Shown piece by piece: positions 1 to 9,868 of a DNA stretch of 64,000 bases; the first letter of the stretch is position 1; every line of letters begins with the position of its first letter. Under the pieces are notes generated by a model that saw only the letters and a list, made by a program, of their open reading frames with translations, made no database searches and had not been told where the DNA came from. Source of the DNA: Chryseobacterium sp. LJ668 (GTDB lineage: Bacteria > Bacteroidota > Bacteroidia > Flavobacteriales > Weeksellaceae); NCBI RefSeq assembly GCF_019613955.1, contig NZ_CP080443.1, forward strand, positions 248,001 to 312,000, read 5' to 3'. The translations under genes were made by a program, and so were the position numbers.

Positions 1-51
1 TATAGCAACAAATATACGAAATTTTGCAATAAAACGTAATAATTTTACACC

Positions 52-1194
52 ATGGAAAGAGCGATAGTGCATATGGATTTGGATACGTTTTTTGTCTCCT
101 GTGAACGGTTAAAAAACTCCGAACTTGAGAAAAAGCCTGTGATCATAGGAGGTGGAGACCGTGGTGTGGTAGCATCCTGCTCTTATGAAACAAGGTTTTT
201 CGGCGTACGAAGTGCCATGCCTATCAAAATGGCATTAAGATTATGTCCTGAAGCACGAGTTATCAAGGGAGATATGGATATGTACTCCAAAATGTCACAT
301 ATGGTCACAGATGTGATTCAGGAAAAAGTACCTGTTTTGGAAAAAGCAAGCATCGATGAATTTTATCTGGATTTGTCAGGAATGGATAAATTCTTCGGAT
401 GTTACCAGTGGACGAATGAAATCGTCGATGCGGTCACCAAAAATACCGGCTTACCGATAAGCTTTGCTTTATCAACCAATAAGACCGTAGCGAAAATCGG
501 CACCGGAGAATCAAAACCAACCGGCAGATTTGAAATTCAGGAACAGAATATCAAACCTTTTTTAAATCCTCTTTCGGTCAAAAAAATTCCTATGGTCGGT
601 AATGTAACCTTTCAGCTTTTATCAAGACTTGGGGTAAGAACCATTCAGACTTTATCAGAAACACCCATTGAAGTTTTACATCAACTCATCGGTAAAAACG
701 GAAGCGAACTTTGGAAAAAAGCCAATGGAATCGATGATACTCCGATCGTTCCGTACTCTGAAAGAAAATCAATTTCCACAGAAAATACTTTTTCTCAGGA
801 TACGATTGATGTTCAGAATCTGAAAAGCATCTTATCAGGAATGGTTGAGCAATTGGCTTTCCAATTGCGTCAGGAAAAATGGCTGACTTCAACGATCTCG
901 GTTAAGATCAGGTATTCCAATTTTGATACTGAGACCAGGCAGTGTAGAATTCCTTATACCTCAGCAGACCATACTTTGCTCAAATATGTATTGGAACTCT
1001 TTAAAAAAGTGTACACCCGAAGAATGCGAATACGACTCATAGGCGTAAAATTCACAGGACTGGTTCATGGATGTCATCAGATGGATCTTTTTGAAGATAC
1101 CGAAGAACTGATTTCTTTATATCAAACCATGGATAAAATCAAAAACCGGTTTGGAACCGGGAGTGTGGGCAGAGCGTCCGGACTCTTAAGATAA
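52..1194 (+). CDS. dinB: DNA polymerase IV (Y-family translesion polymerase)
   Basis: This is a Y-family DNA polymerase that copies past damaged template bases. The N-terminus reads MERAIVHMDLDTFF, placing the first metal-binding Asp at residue 9 and the steric-gate Phe at 13-14. The second catalytic block SIDEFYLDLSG puts Asp102 and Glu103 in the expected place. The length of 380 residues covers palm, fingers, thumb and little-finger domains, and the C-terminus RFGTGSVGRASGL is typical of the Bacteroidota branch. The gene lies 9 bp before a dnaE-type polymerase gene, so the two are probably one transcript acting together in damage tolerance. The promoter and any LexA-type repressor would lie left of the window. 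Confidence 0.95.
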   Translation: MERAIVHMDLDTFFVSCERLKNSELEKKPVIIGGGDRGVVASCSYETRFFGVRSAMPIKMALRLCPEARVIKGDMDMYSKMSHMVTDVIQEKVPVLEKASIDEFYLDLSGMDKFFGCYQWTNEIVDAVTKNTGLPISFALSTNKTVAKIGTGESKPTGRFEIQEQNIKPFLNPLSVKKIPMVGNVTFQLLSRLGVRTIQTLSETPIEVLHQLIGKNGSELWKKANGIDDTPIVPYSERKSISTENTFSQDTIDVQNLKSILSGMVEQLAFQLRQEKWLTSTISVKIRYSNFDTETRQCRIPYTSADHTLLKYVLELFKKVYTRRMRIRLIGVKFTGLVHGCHQMDLFEDTEELISLYQTMDKIKNRFGTGSVGRASGLLR

Positions 1195-1203
1195 TTAAAG
1201 ATT

Positions 1204-4200
1204 ATGTTTCTCAACTGTCACTCTTTTCACAGCCTTCGATACGGAACCATTTCTCTTCAGGATCTGGTTCAGCAGGCTGTCGATCATCAAATAAAAACTT
1301 TAGCGCTAACGGATATCAACACTATCACAGGAATTTACGATTTTTTCAAGCTATGCAATGACCATGACATTAAACCTATTGTAGGAATGGAAATCAGAGT
1401 CGAAAGTGAACTCTATTTTATCTGTCTGGCTAAAAACCAAAAAAGTGTCGGGGAGATTAACCGCTTATTGACCGCTTACAATTGTGACGGAAGTGAAATT
1501 CCAAAACATAATCCAAGCCTTGAAAATACCATTGTCATTTATCCCTTACATAACATTCCTGAAGTTTTGCAGGAACACGAGTATATTGGAATCAGACCCG
1601 AAGAATTGAACCATCTCGTAAAGCCTGATTTCAAAAAGCTGATAGATAAAATGGTCATCTTACAGCCTGTCACATTCACAACCAAACTGGATTATAATCT
1701 CCACAAAATCTTAAGAGCGATTGACAATAACACGCTCATCAGCAAATTGACTGATAACGATAATTGCAGAGACACCGAAACATTTGTCAATAAAAAAGAT
1801 CTGTTGGATCAATACCGCCATTATCCACAAATCATACAGAATACAGCGGATATTATTGATCAGTGTAGTTTTGATTATGATTTTTCAACTCCTAAAAACA
1901 AGCAGTATTTCACAGACAGCCGGGAGAATGATTTTAAGCTGTTGACCCAACTTGCTTACGAAGGTTTGGAAACGAGATATGGAAACGATCATCCCGAAGC
2001 TAAGGCCAGAGTTGAAAAAGAACTGGGAGTGATCGACCAATTAAAATTCAGCGGTTACTTTTTGATCACCTGGGATATTATTCAATACAGCAACAGGATG
2101 GGATTTATGCATGTGGGAAGAGGAAGCGGTGCCAACTCCATTGTCAGTTACTGTTTGGGAATTACAGACATCTGCCCTTTGGAACTGGATCTTTATTTCG
2201 AAAGATTCCTGAACCTCAATAGGAAAACCCCACCTGATTTTGATATTGACTGGAGCTGGCAGACTAGAGATACCATCCTTGAATATATTTTTACTAAATA
2301 TGGTAAAGAGCATGTTGCATTTTGCGGAACCAATGTAGAATTTAAGTACCGGTCCATTTTCAGGGAGGTTGGAAAAGCATTTGGCTTACCGAAGGAGGAA
2401 TTGGATGTTTTGGCGACCAAACCGATGAATGAGCATGATAACAATTCCGTTTTTAAATTGGTGCACAAATACGGGAAGCTTTTGGAAAAGTTTCCGAATC
2501 AGAGAAGCATGCACTCCTGCGGAATTTTAATTTCAGAGGAACCTATCACGAATTTCACAGCATTGGAAATGCCACCAAAAGGTTTTCCGATCGTCCAGTT
2601 CGATATGCATACGGCTGAAGATATCGGATTTGAAAAATTTGATATTCTATCCCAACGAGGACTCGGTACGATAAAAGATACCGTAGAACTCATCAAAGAA
2701 AAAAGAGGGATTACGGTGAACATTAAGGATACCACGATTTCAAAAAATGAAGAGAAATGCAATAGTTACCTCAGTATTGGAAAAACCATCGGCTGTTTTT
2801 ATATTGAGAGTCCCGCGATGCGGGGATTGCTCCGACGATTAAAATGTGAAGACTATAAAACACTGGTGGCAGCATCATCCATTATCCGTCCGGGAGTTGC
2901 GCAAAGTGGAATGATGAAGGAATATATTTTCCGACATAATAATCCGACAAAGTTCGAATACTTTCACGATGTATTTAAAGAAGAGCTGGGTGAAACCTAT
3001 GGGATCATGGTGTATCAGGAAGATGTTATCAAAATTGCCTTGCATTTCGGAGGATTGTCAGCAGCAGACGGTGATGTTTTAAGAAGAGCGATGAGTGGAA
3101 AAGGAAGATCACTATCCGCATTGCAGAAAGTCAAAGACCATTTCTTTGAATCCTGTAGAGAATTGGGACATCCTGAACAATTGTCAAAAGAAGTCTATCG
3201 TCAGATTGAATCTTTTGCAGGATATTCCTTCTGTAAGGCGCACTCGGCGTCTTATGCGGTAGAAAGTTACCAGAGTTTGTATCTGAAAGTATACTACCCT
3301 ATTGAGTTTATGGTGTGTGCCATTAACAATGGAGGTGGATTTTACAGGACTGAGGTATATGTCCATGAAGCGAAAATGTCAGGGGCAGCGATCAAGAATC
3401 CATGTGTCAACCTCAGCGAGTATCAGACGACCGTATATGGGACTGATGTTTATTTAGGTTTAATGCATATAGAGAAAGTAGAAGGAAAAATCGCTATGAT
3501 GATTCCCGAAGAAAGAAGAAATAACGGGGAATATACGTCGCTGGAAAACTTTGTCAAAAGAATACCGATTGGAATTGAAACCCTGCAGATTCTTATTTTT
3601 ATAGGAGCGTTTAGGTTTACCGGAAAACAGAAACATGAGCTTCTGATTCAGGCAAGATTTCTTTTTGGGAATGATCAGTCAGCATTTAGACATCCCACCT
3701 TACTGGATGAACCACAAAGAGAATATAAGCTTCCGTCCATTATCAGAAATCCTTTTGAAGATGCTTTTGATGAAATTGAGATCTTAGGATTTTCTGTATC
3801 ATACAGTCCTTTTGATCTGTTGCAGACCAAGTATCGAGGCAGTGTAATGGCTAAAGACTTAGTTAAGTATCATAAAAAGCAGATCAAAATGCTCGCTTAC
3901 CTTATTTCTAGGAAACATGTCCCTACGAAAAGAGGAGCCATGTTTTTCGGAACCTGGATCGACGCAGAGGGAGAGTATTTTGACACTGCACATTTCCCGA
4001 ACTGCCTTGAAGATTATCCTTTTCAGGGTGGAGGCTGCTATCTATTACTAGGAACCGTTGAAGTGGATTTTCATTTTCCAACGATCACCATTCATAAAAT
4101 GGCCAAAATGCCCTTTATTCCTGATCCCAGGTATTCGATGGACAAAGAAAAATCTTTAGAAGCAGCCAGAACACTGCATGAAGATGTCAGCATGACACAG

Positions 4201-4257
4201 AGAAAACCTTATCCGCAGGAACATGAAATCGGATTGCCAAGGCAGAAAATGATCTAA
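1204..4257 (+). CDS. dnaE: DNA polymerase III alpha subunit, short DnaE type
   Basis: This is a C-family DNA polymerase of 1017 residues, clearly shorter than the usual replicative DnaE of about 1150. The N-terminal PHP domain begins NCHSFHSLRYG and continues with LALTDINTITG. The polymerase active site PDFDIDW lies near residue 344. A second palm block, GRGSGANSIVSYCLG, lies just upstream. The C-terminal OB-fold region is present, but no extended tail follows it. Pairing with dinB 9 bp upstream argues for an accessory, error-prone ImuC/DnaE2-like role rather than chromosome replication, which would use another dnaE outside the window. That role is inferred from gene order and length, not from a diagnostic residue. 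Confidence 0.92.
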   Translation: MFLNCHSFHSLRYGTISLQDLVQQAVDHQIKTLALTDINTITGIYDFFKLCNDHDIKPIVGMEIRVESELYFICLAKNQKSVGEINRLLTAYNCDGSEIPKHNPSLENTIVIYPLHNIPEVLQEHEYIGIRPEELNHLVKPDFKKLIDKMVILQPVTFTTKLDYNLHKILRAIDNNTLISKLTDNDNCRDTETFVNKKDLLDQYRHYPQIIQNTADIIDQCSFDYDFSTPKNKQYFTDSRENDFKLLTQLAYEGLETRYGNDHPEAKARVEKELGVIDQLKFSGYFLITWDIIQYSNRMGFMHVGRGSGANSIVSYCLGITDICPLELDLYFERFLNLNRKTPPDFDIDWSWQTRDTILEYIFTKYGKEHVAFCGTNVEFKYRSIFREVGKAFGLPKEELDVLATKPMNEHDNNSVFKLVHKYGKLLEKFPNQRSMHSCGILISEEPITNFTALEMPPKGFPIVQFDMHTAEDIGFEKFDILSQRGLGTIKDTVELIKEKRGITVNIKDTTISKNEEKCNSYLSIGKTIGCFYIESPAMRGLLRRLKCEDYKTLVAASSIIRPGVAQSGMMKEYIFRHNNPTKFEYFHDVFKEELGETYGIMVYQEDVIKIALHFGGLSAADGDVLRRAMSGKGRSLSALQKVKDHFFESCRELGHPEQLSKEVYRQIESFAGYSFCKAHSASYAVESYQSLYLKVYYPIEFMVCAINNGGGFYRTEVYVHEAKMSGAAIKNPCVNLSEYQTTVYGTDVYLGLMHIEKVEGKIAMMIPEERRNNGEYTSLENFVKRIPIGIETLQILIFIGAFRFTGKQKHELLIQARFLFGNDQSAFRHPTLLDEPQREYKLPSIIRNPFEDAFDEIEILGFSVSYSPFDLLQTKYRGSVMAKDLVKYHKKQIKMLAYLISRKHVPTKRGAMFFGTWIDAEGEYFDTAHFPNCLEDYPFQGGGCYLLLGTVEVDFHFPTITIHKMAKMPFIPDPRYSMDKEKSLEAARTLHEDVSMTQRKPYPQEHEIGLPRQKMI

Positions 4258-4290
4258 AATAAATACTTACTAAAAACAATAATCTCTTAC

Positions 4291-4566
4291 ATGAAACTCA
4301 AAGCTACCATCGTTGATGAAACAAGTCTTGATCACAATTCTGTCATCGTTAGTTTCGAGGGTGACAAAAACAAAAAGCATTTTGAGATCAAATGTTCTTT
4401 CAATCCTTATGTCCACAAAATGAGGAAGTGGGACAGCTGGGAACTGACGATTACATGGGATAGCGAAATTTATAAAGATGAGAAGACTGGTGAGAAATCA
4501 TATTTTACCCATCTTCTTTGTGATAAGGCTATAGAGATTAATTCTCCTTATGGTAAGAAGGATTAA
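4291..4566 (+). CDS. small conserved hypothetical protein behind the polymerase cassette
   Basis: This gene encodes a 91-residue acidic soluble protein with no signal peptide or membrane segment. It starts 33 bp after dnaE on the same strand, so it could be the last gene of the dinB-dnaE transcript. The sequence is rich in aromatic and charged residues (HKMRKWDSWELTITWDSEIY) and looks like a beta-rich domain. I do not recognise a family. The open frame, the spacing and the end of the operon-like run just after it support a real gene, but a role in DNA damage tolerance is only a guess from position. Confidence 0.6.
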   Translation: MKLKATIVDETSLDHNSVIVSFEGDKNKKHFEIKCSFNPYVHKMRKWDSWELTITWDSEIYKDEKTGEKSYFTHLLCDKAIEINSPYGKKD

Positions 4567-4675
4567 AATTTAGACCGCAATTAAAATAAACTTAATCATT
4601 TTAACATTTGGTGAAATTTTTAAAAGATAAAATAAAAAATATGGTTTCCCATTAAACTATAAGAAGATAATATTT

Positions 4676-4683
4676 TATTTTTG
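4676..4683 (+). promoter_or_regulatory. putative -7 promoter element of the Avs-like gene
   Basis: The octamer TATTTTTG fits the Bacteroidota sigma-A -7 consensus TAnnTTTG. It lies 33 bp before the ATG at 4716 in a very AT-rich spacer of about 150 bp. No convincing -33 TTTG partner is seen. Confidence 0.4.
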
Positions 4684-4715
4684 TGAATACACCTTCTGGT
4701 GACTGATACCCTAAA

Positions 4716-7700
4716 ATGAAAACACAATACAACCTGCCAACCCTAAATAAGATCACTGAAGAATTAGATAACTTAATTGTAAAGAGAACTGGAGGAGCCA
4801 TTAATTTTCGTGGAATGCACTTTCAGATTCTCTACTCCTCGTATTTAATACTCAAAGAACTTGATCAAAACTCTGATGAAAAATCTATCAGAATGGAAGG
4901 AATTGAAGATATTGACTTAAGTACTTCTCAAAACATTTTAATAGACAACGAATATATTCAGGTAAAATCTTCAATTAATAAAATGGATGCCGGTAGTTTT
5001 TGGAACTTGGGAGTTCTTCAAAATTTTGCAGAAACCTATATGATAAATCCTGAAAGTCAATTTAAATTGGTGTATAACATGGAAATTTCGAAAGGAAATC
5101 TACATGATCTTATTCACAATAGGGATATATCTGAATTTTGGATAACTAAATTACAAACACTAAATAAGAATATAATATACGAGGACTTTTTGCTGAGAAT
5201 ATCTTACGAGCACAAAACCTCTAATGATCTTTTTAATGAAATTCTAGTACTATTATTTAAAAATTGGCAAATAAATAAGGGAACAGAATTTCAATTCTTA
5301 AGATCTTTATTTTACAATGTATTTATATGGTCACAAAACAGATCAACTGTAACCAATAATGATATTAATATTCTTTTTCAAGATATAAAAGATTCTTATT
5401 CTAAGGCTGCTGTAAACAGTGCTGTGCAAAATAATTGGATTTCAAAAGTCTCTTATGCTATAATGGGAAACTATAGTTCTCATGACTTTTACGATGGGAA
5501 AGCTGCAAGACCTGTACATATAGGTTTAGGATTGCCTGTACAGCGAAGAATATGGCAGAAAACAATATATGAAAGTTTAATAAATGCAGATGTTACTGTC
5601 ATTAAGTCTTCTAGTGGTCAGGGAAAATCTACTCTAGCATGGCAAACAGGTTTAAACTTGCAAGAAAAAAACAATTATACAATATACGAACTTCGTAATT
5701 GTGCTAATGTGAATGAGGCTGACTCAGTAGCAGAATTTCTGCTGACAAGAGTAATAATTGGCGAGAAACCTCTGTTAGTTATTGACGGTCTAAATAGTTT
5801 AGTTGAATCTTGGTTTGAAATTGTCACTAGAACCAGGGATTATCCAGTTAAGTATCTTCTTACAGCAAGGCAAGAAGATTGGTACAGGTTCGGGGCTGAT
5901 CTTTCACAGGTAAAATTAATGATTGTTGATATATCATTGTCAATGAGCGAAGCAGGAGCTATTTTTGAAGAATTTAAAAGAAAACAAAAAATTCATCTTG
6001 ACATCAGCAAATGGCAACCGGTATGGGAGCAGGTTCGTCAAAAAGGATTGTTAATAGAATACACCTACTTACTTACAAGAGGTGAAATGATTCAAGAAAG
6101 ACTTTCTGCACAATTAAAATATTTATCCAATTCTAAATCTTCAGGGGCAAAGTTGGAGATGCTAAGAATGATTTCACTTGCAGATTGTCTAAACATAAGG
6201 TTAAAAACCATAAATTTAATAAATTACATCAAAGCTGAGATAGGTTTCGATCAGGACAGAGGTGAATTATTGAATGAGCTTGAAAAGGAATATTTTTTAA
6301 ATTTCGGAGGTGATTTTGTTGAAGGATTGCATCCGGTACGATCTCAGCACCTGAACGATTTATTACATAAAAACTTACCTATAGAAGATTCTCTTAGAAA
6401 TCTTTTTAAAATTATAACTGACGAGTACAAGCAGCATTTCTTCAGTAATATACCTATACTTGTAACGGAACAAAATAAAGCTTCATTATATAATACATTG
6501 GCAGATGCAATTTCTGAAGATTCCTTTGATAATATAGTGCTCGCTTTAGATGGTATTATGCATGCTGAGCCAAAAAGATATTGGGATGAAAACAAGTTAA
6601 AATTTGATGAAGCATACAAATCAGGTGGTATAGATCTATTCGCCATAACTTCTACCCCATTTACAGAGCTTAATACTTTAACTGATATGGCAGAAATATT
6701 AGGAGATCAGGGGGGTAATTTTAGAAATCTTGCTACATTAAAAGATGAATTATCTAACTTCCAATTTGAAAATTCAGATGTAATTATTTTTGCGAAAGCA
6801 CTCAATTCAAATTTGCAGAAGCGACTACTTTCCATCGATTCATATAAGGGTTTAGGATTTTTAATAAAATGGTATAATTCTTTACAATTACCCTTAAGCC
6901 TTCCGCTAATTAAACCTGAAATTGACGAACTTACTAAAATGGATTTCCAGGAGGCAAAAGAATTTATGTTGTTTTTTCAACTTAGCAATCCACTTCCATA
7001 TAAAGATTTTATTGAAGAAAATATAGATAAAATTAAAAGCTATCTAAAAGTTAATACAGATTCTTTAAATATAGAAGAGAAGGATAATGAAATACACATA
7101 GAATATCTTTTAGAAGATAAGAATGCAAAGCTGGCAAACAATTTAAGTGTTTCAAAAATTGACGACATACATTGCTTTTTACCATTTTACAAAAAATATT
7201 GTACCGAAGCTTTAATGTTACCTTTCCCATCCGAAGAAATGATTTCAATGGTTAAGCAAGATTCAATTAAAAGATTAAGTCCAGAAATAATTGGTAATTC
7301 TTTTGAAATTCATCTTAATCAGATTTGGAATAGCGAAATAAGCAAAATATATCAAGAATCATCTTCATATCATTGGCAGGAAAAGATCCTAGGTATTCGA
7401 AAAGTAGCATTAGAATGGTCAAAAAGCATAACACGTATTATTGATGCATTGCTTGAAGGAAATGAAAAGAAAAAGAAAACATATATAGAAGAATTAGATA
7501 GAAATAGAACACTTTTAAATAATTCAATTATTAGCAGGAAAAAATATCCTCGCTTTGATAATTACAGTGAGCAAGAAATTGTAGTTATTGATGAGAAAGA
7601 GATTAATTTATGGATTTCATCACTTATAAATATTAATAATCAAATCTATAAGATTTTCATTCCTGATGTTGAACATGAGAGAAATCTTGCTCTAATAAAT

Positions 7701-8624
7701 TTTAAAAGTATTTACTTCAATCTTCAAAATATGCAAAATGCATTCAGAGTTATAGAGAAAAAGTCAGTGGCTTATTTTGATTCTGAGAATATTTGTGCAG
7801 AAGAAAATAAACATTACGATAGATTATATGCCACTATTTTATATTACTTATCTCAAATTCCGTTAGAAAATAAAACGGTTGTTTCAGTTGGCAGAAAGGC
7901 TGTCGAAGAGTGGTGGTTACATGCCAAGAGCGCAACAATAGATGATCTTAACTTGTCCTTAAAAATTATTGAACGGACTTCTGATTATAAATTTGTATAT
8001 CCTGAAAAAATAACCGAAACTCCTACCTTAACATACCTGACAGTTGGAATCTTGGATTTTGACTTTTCAGACACAACCAATTTTCAGCACTTGTTATTTA
8101 ATTTGGGACTTTTACGAGATATCCACTACGATTTCATTACTATCATTAATGTAAAAGATAATATAGCATTGAACGGTTTTAGACTAAAAAAAGACTTGAT
8201 CAATGTTCTTGACAATTTGATTGATGGTACAGAGGATATTGACATGACTTATTTAGCGCCGCTACCAATTGCCGTTGACGAAGAAACAATTAAGAATTTA
8301 CCTGGAATTTATCTTTCAGAAAAATCTATAAATAATGACCTAGATAAAAAGTTTGAAATTTTAATTGATCTCTGGAAGCTGTCAGAATGTAGAAATTATT
8401 TAAATATAGATTCCGCTATCGAAATGGCATGGTTAAAAAAACTTCAATTAGATTCAAAAATTAAATCAAAACTTAGTACAATTAAAGCTCCTTCAAACCG
8501 TTTTTCAGATTTTGTTCTTAATGGGCTAGAACCAAATTGTATCTATTCGAAGGAAGATATTACTGTAGAGATATACGAACAAATTGCAATACACAGTGTC
8601 TCAAGCGAAAACAAAGATATTTGA
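4716..8624 (+). CDS. Avs-like STAND NTPase with N-terminal Cap4/DUF4297-type nuclease domain
   Basis: This 1302-residue protein has three parts. Residues 25-125 resemble a Cap4/DUF4297 PD-(D/E)xK nuclease: a GG...FRGMHFQ start, then MEGIEDIDL (Glu61, Asp65, Asp67), then EYIQVKSS with the Q-x-K pair at 82-84. Residues 270-470 are a P-loop NTPase with Walker A SSSGQGKST (298-306), Walker B LLVIDGL (353-359) and a following LLTAR strand. The remaining 800 or so residues are mostly helical-looking and match no motif I know, which suits a sensor region. This order is that of antiviral STAND (Avs) proteins, in which target recognition by the C-terminus triggers the nuclease. The gene has its own promoter-like element and a broken ParB-like gene follows it. 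It is more AT-rich than the dnaE gene before it, which suggests transfer. Antiphage function is inferred from architecture. Confidence 0.72.
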   Translation: MKTQYNLPTLNKITEELDNLIVKRTGGAINFRGMHFQILYSSYLILKELDQNSDEKSIRMEGIEDIDLSTSQNILIDNEYIQVKSSINKMDAGSFWNLGVLQNFAETYMINPESQFKLVYNMEISKGNLHDLIHNRDISEFWITKLQTLNKNIIYEDFLLRISYEHKTSNDLFNEILVLLFKNWQINKGTEFQFLRSLFYNVFIWSQNRSTVTNNDINILFQDIKDSYSKAAVNSAVQNNWISKVSYAIMGNYSSHDFYDGKAARPVHIGLGLPVQRRIWQKTIYESLINADVTVIKSSSGQGKSTLAWQTGLNLQEKNNYTIYELRNCANVNEADSVAEFLLTRVIIGEKPLLVIDGLNSLVESWFEIVTRTRDYPVKYLLTARQEDWYRFGADLSQVKLMIVDISLSMSEAGAIFEEFKRKQKIHLDISKWQPVWEQVRQKGLLIEYTYLLTRGEMIQERLSAQLKYLSNSKSSGAKLEMLRMISLADCLNIRLKTINLINYIKAEIGFDQDRGELLNELEKEYFLNFGGDFVEGLHPVRSQHLNDLLHKNLPIEDSLRNLFKIITDEYKQHFFSNIPILVTEQNKASLYNTLADAISEDSFDNIVLALDGIMHAEPKRYWDENKLKFDEAYKSGGIDLFAITSTPFTELNTLTDMAEILGDQGGNFRNLATLKDELSNFQFENSDVIIFAKALNSNLQKRLLSIDSYKGLGFLIKWYNSLQLPLSLPLIKPEIDELTKMDFQEAKEFMLFFQLSNPLPYKDFIEENIDKIKSYLKVNTDSLNIEEKDNEIHIEYLLEDKNAKLANNLSVSKIDDIHCFLPFYKKYCTEALMLPFPSEEMISMVKQDSIKRLSPEIIGNSFEIHLNQIWNSEISKIYQESSSYHWQEKILGIRKVALEWSKSITRIIDALLEGNEKKKKTYIEELDRNRTLLNNSIISRKKYPRFDNYSEQEIVVIDEKEINLWISSLININNQIYKIFIPDVEHERNLALINFKSIYFNLQNMQNAFRVIEKKSVAYFDSENICAEENKHYDRLYATILYYLSQIPLENKTVVSVGRKAVEEWWLHAKSATIDDLNLSLKIIERTSDYKFVYPEKITETPTLTYLTVGILDFDFSDTTNFQHLLFNLGLLRDIHYDFITIINVKDNIALNGFRLKKDLINVLDNLIDGTEDIDMTYLAPLPIAVDEETIKNLPGIYLSEKSINNDLDKKFEILIDLWKLSECRNYLNIDSAIEMAWLKKLQLDSKIKSKLSTIKAPSNRFSDFVLNGLEPNCIYSKEDITVEIYEQIAIHSVSSENKDI

Positions 8625-8681
8625 AAAATATCTCGTCTATAACCATTGCATCTTATAGATTTTTAATATTAAATTTGAGTT

Positions 8682-9126
8682 ATGAAAAAATTTATTCCTG
8701 AATTTAATGATAAAACAATTGATAAAATAAAGCTACTTATACCCGAACCCTACTGGGCAGTTGGAGATAATTTGTCTTTTAATCTGTCAAAAGATATATT
8801 ACCTGAAGAAGGAAGGTTTGAATTTTTTTTTTATCAAAACAGCTTCCCTTGTTTATCATAGTGAATTTGGTGAAGTAGATATCAATAAACTGTTCACCTC
8901 AGATGACAAAAATAATAAAAGGATTTCACGAATTATTTATCACTGGGAAAATGGACAATACCTTGATCCTCCTAAAATACATCTAAAGCCAAATACTAAG
9001 ATTATTCATTTTGAAGATGGAAGACATAGAGCCAAATTAGCATATATCTTAGGTTTTGATCAAATTCCAGTAGCACTTCATGTCGATGACATTGAAAATA
9101 TCAGATCAATTATAAAGTTAGATTAA
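8682..9126 (+). pseudogene. ParB/sulfiredoxin-fold protein, frameshifted in a T10 run
   Basis: A frame opens at ATG 8682 (MKKFIPEFNDKTIDKIK) and runs into TAG near 8861. The neighbouring frame carries the rest of a coherent protein to the stop at 9126. The two join inside a run of ten T at 8823-8832. Removing one T would restore about 147 residues. The distal part contains FEDGRHRAKLAYILGF, the DGRHR...A...LG pattern of the ParB N-terminal/sulfiredoxin fold, which occurs in DNA-binding and nuclease proteins. It follows the Avs-like gene by 57 bp on the same strand, so an accessory role is possible. It may be a true pseudogene, a phase-variable gene or a sequencing error in the homopolymer. 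The reading from TTG 8761 alone would miss the conserved N-terminal part. Confidence 0.6.
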
Positions 9127-9414
9127 TTTGAATATTAATATCATGTCTAATCTAAGATGATAATCTGTATTTGATATACAAATATTGAAAATAATCCTTC
9201 TCCATAATTCTTTTAGATTATTGTCTTTATCCACCCGTGAGTTTTCTATGAAACCAACTATATCTAGGTAGCTCGCCTGTTCTGATCTGGACACCTCTTC
9301 ATTTTTACCGGTCATTGTCATTGCTGAGGAGAAGTGGATTCGACCAGTACCAACTCTATCAAACAGTTTAGTGAAAACTGTTTGATAATTACTGCTTAGA
9401 GACTGCACATGCAT
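9118..9414 (-). pseudogene. HipA-type serine/threonine kinase relic
   Basis: The reverse frame holds the middle-to-C-terminal core of a HipA toxin kinase. It has a FDRV block, then GRIHFSSAMTMTG, then ASYLDIVGFIE, then LWRRIIFNICISNTDYHLR. In the family this last block reads NTDDHLRNHGF, so one conserved Asp has become Tyr and the sequence after HLR is unrelated. The piece covers under a quarter of a normal HipA of about 400 residues, and no intact HipB is nearby. It converges on the ParB-like gene with a 9-bp overlap. It is best read as the wreck of a toxin-antitoxin module. Confidence 0.6.
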
Positions 9415-9655
9415 AGAAAAGATTGATTTACTATAAATAAGTCTTTATGCAAGCTCACTTAAATAACATGCTAAGTTTTTCCATTACGGTGCGCTAATAA
9501 TTCCTTTTCTTGTCTAAGAAGGCTTATGGCTATTAAATTTTCTATAGGAGATCCTTCTCCAATCACCTCTCAAGCGAAGATGAAATTCTGACAATTTCTA
9601 TCATATGTGATATTTGCAATAAGTATGTAAAAATTTACAACGGTAGATATTTTCA
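9415..9655. other. non-coding gap between HipA relic and small ORF
   Basis: No intact gene is present. A reverse-strand open stretch around 9480-9570 reads like a protein tail (GSPIENLIAISLLRQEKELL) but has no start and no family I recognise. It may be more debris of the same element as the HipA relic. Confidence 0.4.
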
Positions 9656-9868
9656 ATGAACCAACTTTACGACATACAAATATCTGAAGAGAAGGATGAT
9701 GAAAAACTCCGAATTAGGATTGAAATAAAAAGATTTTATTTCAATCCTAATTCGGAGTTAATGGGAAAAATAACGAGTAAGAATACAATCAAAGTAATGC
9801 AATCACAAATTGTACATATATCTGATTTTCACAATAGTTATCACAGTAAACTAATATTTAAGAAATAA
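9656..9868 (+). CDS. doubtful 70-residue ORF spanning a long hairpin
   Basis: An ATG-started frame of 70 residues (MNQLYDIQISEEKDDEK...) runs through the perfect inverted repeat at 9705-9759, so two stretches of the protein are encoded by complementary arms. No family is recognised, no operon partner is present, and the porin operon starts 42 bp later. The frame may be accidental, with the hairpin being the real feature. It is listed because nothing else explains this stretch. Confidence 0.2.
   Translation: MNQLYDIQISEEKDDEKLRIRIEIKRFYFNPNSELMGKITSKNTIKVMQSQIVHISDFHNSYHSKLIFKK
9705..9759. repeat. perfect 26-bp inverted repeat with 3-nt loop
   Basis: The arms 9705-9730 and 9734-9759 are exact reverse complements, separated by the loop AGA. 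The left arm begins AACTCCGAATTAGG and the right arm ends in its complement. The stem is far longer than an ordinary terminator needs. It lies between the decayed defence patch and the porin operon, so it could insulate the two, or mark the end of a lost mobile element. Confidence 0.85.

Follow-up and report, generated by a model that had tools for sequence, protein, structure and literature searches.

A probable Avs-like antiviral STAND protein with a Cap4-type nuclease in Chryseobacterium sp. LJ668

Bacterial STAND proteins are the counterparts of animal and plant NLRs, and the pattern recognition of the antiviral STAND (Avs) proteins was reportedly introduced by Gao et al. in 2022. In Avs proteins the trigger is recognised by the C-terminal region, the STAND module assembles and the nuclease domains come together (Avs3, PMC12198126; Avs, PMC12931631). 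In the present study we analysed one gene in a 64,000-nt stretch of Chryseobacterium sp. LJ668 (hereafter the window, whose positions are used throughout), which had been predicted to encode an Avs-like antiviral STAND protein. Both the build and the probable function given in that original prediction were supported: the product combines a STAND module with a Cap4-type nuclease, and very probably acts against phage and works like Avs3. The open reading frame (ORF) runs exactly from 4716 to 8624 on the plus strand, is intact, starts with ATG and encodes 1302 aa; the gene is the single match in its own 3.47-Mb genome. Its parts are as follows.

4716..8624, plus strand: gene for the Cap4-type nuclease, STAND NTPase and C-terminal predicted sensor (from ORF, Pfam and homologue alignment)
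4716..5411, plus strand: Cap4/DUF4297-type PD-(D/E)xK nuclease domain, residues 1–232
4896..4967, plus strand: candidate catalytic residues E61, E64, D65, D67, Q82 and K84 (residues 61–84), invariant in 71/71
5412..6005, plus strand: STAND NTPase core, residues 233–430
5610..5633, plus strand: Walker A SSGQGKST, residues 299–306, all eight invariant in the alignment and seven counted as 71/71
5772..5792, plus strand: Walker B, residues 353–359, with D357 and G358 invariant
6006..6395, plus strand: helical arm or winged-helix-like part, residues 431–560, with a GLHPVRS motif (G537, H539, R542 and S543 invariant)
6396..8621, plus strand: predicted sensor, residues 561–1302, mainly helical with strands at ~783–833 and ~1106–1185 (AlphaFold2, AF2, model)

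Of 7994 candidates scored, at least 185 were homologues at E ≤ 0.001, and query coverage exceeded 90% in all but four of the 120 homologues listed, from which we picked 71 for spread as the conservation set. The nuclease residues named in the prediction (E61, D65, D67, Q82 and K84) sit where it had put them and are identical in 71/71 aligned homologues, and the same holds for Walker A (299–306) and the Walker B residue D357, which are invariant in this set. Moreover, the Pfam profiles agreed with the proposed families, since Cap4_nuclease (PF14130) matched residues 25–96 at E 1.2e-5 and nSTAND_NTPase5 (PF25199) matched residues 257–394 at E 4.8e-9, with 36.6 bits against a cut-off of 34. The effector precedes the NTPase and a large, more variable C-terminal region follows them: mean pairwise identity in the 71-row alignment was 0.341 for that region vs 0.429–0.556 elsewhere, with the arm (431–560) highest at 0.556. 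We infer a winged helix for residues 431–560, and the GLHPVRS at the end of the arm (H539, R542) could be the histidine motif by which the winged-helix domains of STAND proteins sense the nucleotide.

Structural comparison, which had been proposed as a check alongside profile searches, gave matches for the nuclease, for the NTPase and to Avs proteins. Using VIA, the modelled nuclease matched HerA-DUF4297, a Hachiman chain, LmuA and Cap4, in keeping with a PD-(D/E)xK fold and its catalytic residues, the NTPase matched EfAvs5, and Avs3 was aligned over residues 25–650 (514 residues); Avs4 and Avs5 chains were also among the Foldseek matches, at E 1.3e-8 to 7e-6. By model, both domains have these folds, and the P-loop NTPase is of the STAND type by its PF25199 score, its invariant Walker residues and its Avs5-like fold.

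The C-terminal part had been described as an unrecognised sensor of 800 residues making up two-thirds of the protein. It is indeed unrecognised, and nothing convincing was given by Pfam (best DUF5741, E 0.052, below the cut-off), but it is smaller than proposed, with ~742 residues (561–1302) or 57% of the protein. The AF2 model of residues 480–1302 has a predicted local distance difference test score (pLDDT) of 88.3 and a predicted template modelling score (pTM) of 0.79; conservation within the region peaks at residues 781–900, an alpha/beta core, whereas 721–780 and 1191–1302 are variable. With somewhat less than even confidence, we suggest that these 742 residues form a new kind of sensor of phage patterns, in which a helical scaffold carries the conserved core and variable surfaces, with a target other than the terminase or portal seen by Avs1–4; the family would then be an Avs-like type of its own, centred on Bacteroidota and split deeply into two clades.

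The second clade consists of 1329–1352-residue proteins in six genomes (G141, G283, G281, G217, G185 and G243), which have the NTPase in common with it (profile E 5e-56 to 5e-49). In their nuclease part and C-terminal region no match was found by hmmsearch at E ≤ 1, and both were recovered by profile–profile comparison, the nuclease part at E 5.7e-9 and the C-terminal region with a probability of 96.3 (E 1.7e-9, 647 columns, 14% identity). None of the 17 controls for the latter (one reversed, sixteen shuffled) came near, with probabilities of 0.1 to 1.8; the C-terminal scaffold is therefore old and common to the two clades. Directly after one distant STAND gene lies a gene for a 1264-aa protein (L037, 14515–18309), for which neither Pfam (E ≤ 0.01) nor PADLOC (E ≤ 0.001) gave a match.

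Since the build and the residue conservation fit the Avs mechanism, we propose the same sequence of events. At rest, the STAND module would keep the protein inactive. Upon infection, region 561–1302 would, by analogy with Avs, bind a protein made by the phage, and the STAND NTPase would then take up ATP and drive oligomerisation. Oligomerisation would pair the N-terminal Cap4-type nuclease domains, whose predicted activity is the cleavage of double-stranded DNA of both phage and host, so that the infection would presumably be ended at the cost of the cell.

Relatives are rare and patchily distributed. When 296 genomes of the family were searched, 17 gave a match. Eight of these have a full-length close homologue, the window's own included; six contain distant homologues (G281, of the same genus as the window's genome, has both kinds), three have fragments only (G194, G214 and G241) and one a marginal match (G019). 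In 395 genomes spread over the phylum, the C-terminal profile was detected in three, again including the window's genome. Among 72,556 plasmid records, 11 match; one of these, from Hymenobacter, spans 80% or more of the query, with 32.7% identity over 99% of it. Phage records gave one partial distant match (38% of the query, 22.8% identity), and IMG/VR gave two matching contigs, which are counted as database contigs and not as phage; at one IMG/VR locus (L060) a 30% relative adjoins an HsdM methylase gene.

Known defence genes lie near several of these relatives. In G281, Gabija adjoins the homologue (GajA E 5.6e-281, GajB 6.5e-248); Gabija is also present in the G261 locus, and Septu in the G290, G266 and G199 loci. 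To quantify this context, ORFs encoding 120 aa or more and lying no further than 9 kb away were scanned at six related loci (68 proteins) and at ten control loci (70 proteins), the latter chosen by us from 13 dnaE2-cassette loci (L045, L050 and L055 were left out); G227 was not counted, its neighbouring ORFs being the same as those of G290. Both genes of a known two-gene system (E ≤ 1e-20) were found at 5/6 related loci vs 1/10 controls (IetAS, L051), giving a one-sided Fisher p of 0.0076, or 0.017 if G290 and G266 count as a single island, from small counts and related loci. Locus L059 shares 12.7 kb with the G261 island (L032/L033) at 96% identity, after which SduA of Shedu occupies the place that Gabija has in G261; a neighbouring 1526-aa protein there has weak PDC-M54A and LmuA matches. 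Two distant-clade loci (G217 and G185) are also near GajA/GajB genes. Other large proteins were seen beside relatives (L028 4606–7848 and 10417–14307; L023 4401–7793): a 1080-aa protein of Cap4 type, a 1296-aa protein with AAA_16 and nSTAND5 signals and a 1130-aa protein with nSTAND5 and no Cap4 match; none of the three has a strong PADLOC match.

The gene may also be transcribed independently, and one further feature is needed here.

4676..4683, plus strand: candidate -7 promoter element TATTTTTG, a TAnnTTTG pattern before the start that recurs in relatives

TAnnTTTG, which we take to be the -7 element of Bacteroidota promoters, lies 40–56 bases upstream of the start in six of seven loci; in the seventh (G261) it is found at -97 relative to the assumed start, against a background of 56 sites on one strand of the window. 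The pattern suggests that the STAND gene has its own promoter.

The neighbours also bear on other explanations. The same machine could respond to something else than a phage protein, whether DNA entering the cell, a product of plasmid transfer or a host process that infection disturbs, and defend against mobile elements generally. A resolvase-family gene adjoins the homologue in G290 by Pfam (in G227 and G261 likewise by likeness of ORF starts), genes that we read as resembling conjugative-transfer genes adjoin it in G675, the Hymenobacter homologue is on a plasmid, and bNACHT25, a bacterial NLR-related protein, senses phage via DnaJ (PMC12169576). However, the systems that neighbour the relatives (Gabija, Septu and Shedu) are anti-phage, and Avs1–4 sense phage proteins (PMC12931631), and we regard such a trigger as improbable. 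A modular pair, in which the protein would be a regulator or accessory of downstream defence genes in the same direction, is more improbable still. It would fit the five of six loci (G281, G290, G266, G199 and G288) in which the next gene, a defence or nuclease/STAND gene, starts ~280–400 bases downstream on the same strand; but this partner varies (Gabija, two kinds of Septu, a restriction endonuclease (REase)/STAND-like gene) and is missing in the window, and the STAND gene has its own promoter-like element and its own effector. The pattern is that expected of independent systems in a defence island. We give hardly any credence to a role outside immunity, in regulation or as a housekeeping NTPase whose N-terminus resembles a nuclease, given that the candidate nuclease residues are kept in 71/71 homologues, that the distribution is rare and patchy, down to the three genomes with fragments only, and that defence genes are neighbours in relatives.

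Several observations weigh against an Avs-like anti-phage protein. The packing of nuclease against NTPase is uncertain (model pTM 0.48), the Avs3 alignment that spans both has a root-mean-square deviation (rmsd) of 13.6, and the Cap4 Pfam score of 26.0 bits is marginally below the curated cut-off of 26.2. For the C-terminal region there was no Foldseek match at E ≤ 0.001 and no significant VIA match, although in a model of more than 400 residues a domain match could be missed, and no repeat family was recognised by Pfam at E ≤ 1; phage-protein binding by this region is for these reasons put forward by analogy. No intact known defence gene adjoins the STAND gene within the window, and the island argument is weakened by G288, which has weak matches only (E 7e-10, for an LmuA-like protein, and E 1e-5) besides the REase/STAND-like protein, and by a mad3 match (E 4.8e-26) in control locus L042, which fell on an ABC-transporter-like ATPase and, as a single gene, was not counted as a system. 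Weighing these points, we consider it likely that the gene makes up a one-gene anti-phage immune system whose protein is Avs-like (NLR-like) in build, with a phage trigger recognised by its C-terminus and a Cap4-type nuclease as effector.

The surroundings within the window differ on the two sides. To the left are dinB-like and dnaE-like polymerase genes (Pfam IMS and DNA_pol3_alpha) and a 91-aa ORF, a block that continues in nine other genomes at 80–90% DNA identity and ends at 4565–4572 in eight of them and at 4262 in the ninth, with different genes beyond. To the right follow, in order, a split small ORF, a HipA_C fragment, a Porin_O_P gene and a sodium:sulfate symporter gene; the porin segment is present in 7 of 15 other genomes searched, at other locations there. 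Because the left block stops there in other genomes and the porin segment lies elsewhere, 4570–9800 looks like an inserted segment. Its G+C content is 0.303, a value as low being reached in 9 of 301 sliding stretches of equal length, and compares with 0.306 for the gene, 0.353 for the whole window and 0.391 for 1–4566.

9118..9414, minus strand: HipA_C fragment of 98 aa, neighbouring cargo outside the system (Pfam PF07804, E 2.7e-15, profile positions 63–140 of 213)

The toxin–antitoxin relic reported next door is therefore real as this HipA fragment, but it is not part of the system. The split ORF (8682–9126) consists of two pieces in different frames joined at a ten-T run (8823–8832), with homologues in G124 and G283 that have open frames of 165 codons, and reflects a frameshift, a slippage site or a sequencing error. 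At 9705–9759, ~55 bases match the opposite strand of the same place at 95%, an inverted repeat with no second copy listed in the window's genome.

The dinB–dnaE cassette (52–4566), upstream of which lie a divergent HTH regulator and a 2OG-oxygenase gene, is present four times at nearly full length in the window's genome (the others at G000:C1:1178643, 1408554 and 2599032) and in many relatives with varying neighbours (loci including L040, L041, L055 and L051). Three of six distant-clade STAND genes are within 0.1–3 kb of it, and IetAS adjoins the copy in L051. A rough binomial for 4/14 STAND loci at the cassette gives 2.6e-5, on the assumption that a 4.6-Mb genome contains three cassettes. Such cassettes may be markers of a hotspot for defence genes.

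In the literature on Cap4/DUF4297, STAND/nSTAND5, Avs and Chryseobacterium antiphage defence, taken mostly as titles and the starts of abstracts, no description of this protein family was recognised. No model of PADLOC 2.0.0, which we take to hold Avs models, matched the 1302-aa protein at E ≤ 1, nor was a match found at E ≤ 0.001 for L040, the one diverged relative tested; STAND immunity in Bacteroidota may for this reason be undercounted. With a familiar nuclease and switch joined to a sensor region without a counterpart among solved structures, the protein offers a direct route to a new trigger.

Among the known systems nearest to the protein is Avs3 (AVAST type 3; PDB 8dgc), whose chain has 2028 residues vs 1302 here; a search of PDB sequences with the 71-row profile returned no Avs chains at E ≤ 10. 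Avs5 (SIR2-STAND; EfAvs5 9jap, AVAST5 filament 9nc9) carries a Sir2 NADase effector in place of the Cap4-type nuclease, and the Avs5 proteins of PMC12931631 have an nSTAND3 NTPase, whereas nSTAND5 is found here. Human SAMD9 (9zjs, 9zjw and 9zjr) aligns over the NTPase and arm only, with an rmsd of ~10 and 12% identity, and no correspondence to the nuclease was seen. The HerA-DUF4297, Cap4, LmuA and Hachiman nucleases work alongside partners, among them HerA and a SAVED domain. In contrast to DUF4297 of HerA-DUF4297 (9c1m), Cap4 (6wam, 6vm6 and 6vm5), LmuA (9ux7, 9nxx and 9hr5) and Hachiman (8zue, a chain that is presumably HamA), the nuclease here is fused to a STAND NTPase; no SAVED family was detected in the Pfam scan at E ≤ 1, where a missing match is no proof of a missing fold, and an nSTAND5 NTPase follows the nuclease instead. 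The 1329–1352-residue proteins of the second clade are homologous to the 1302-aa protein from end to end (NTPase HHalign E 3e-49). In overall build the 1302-aa protein follows a known type, and by these searches it is not placed among Avs1–5.
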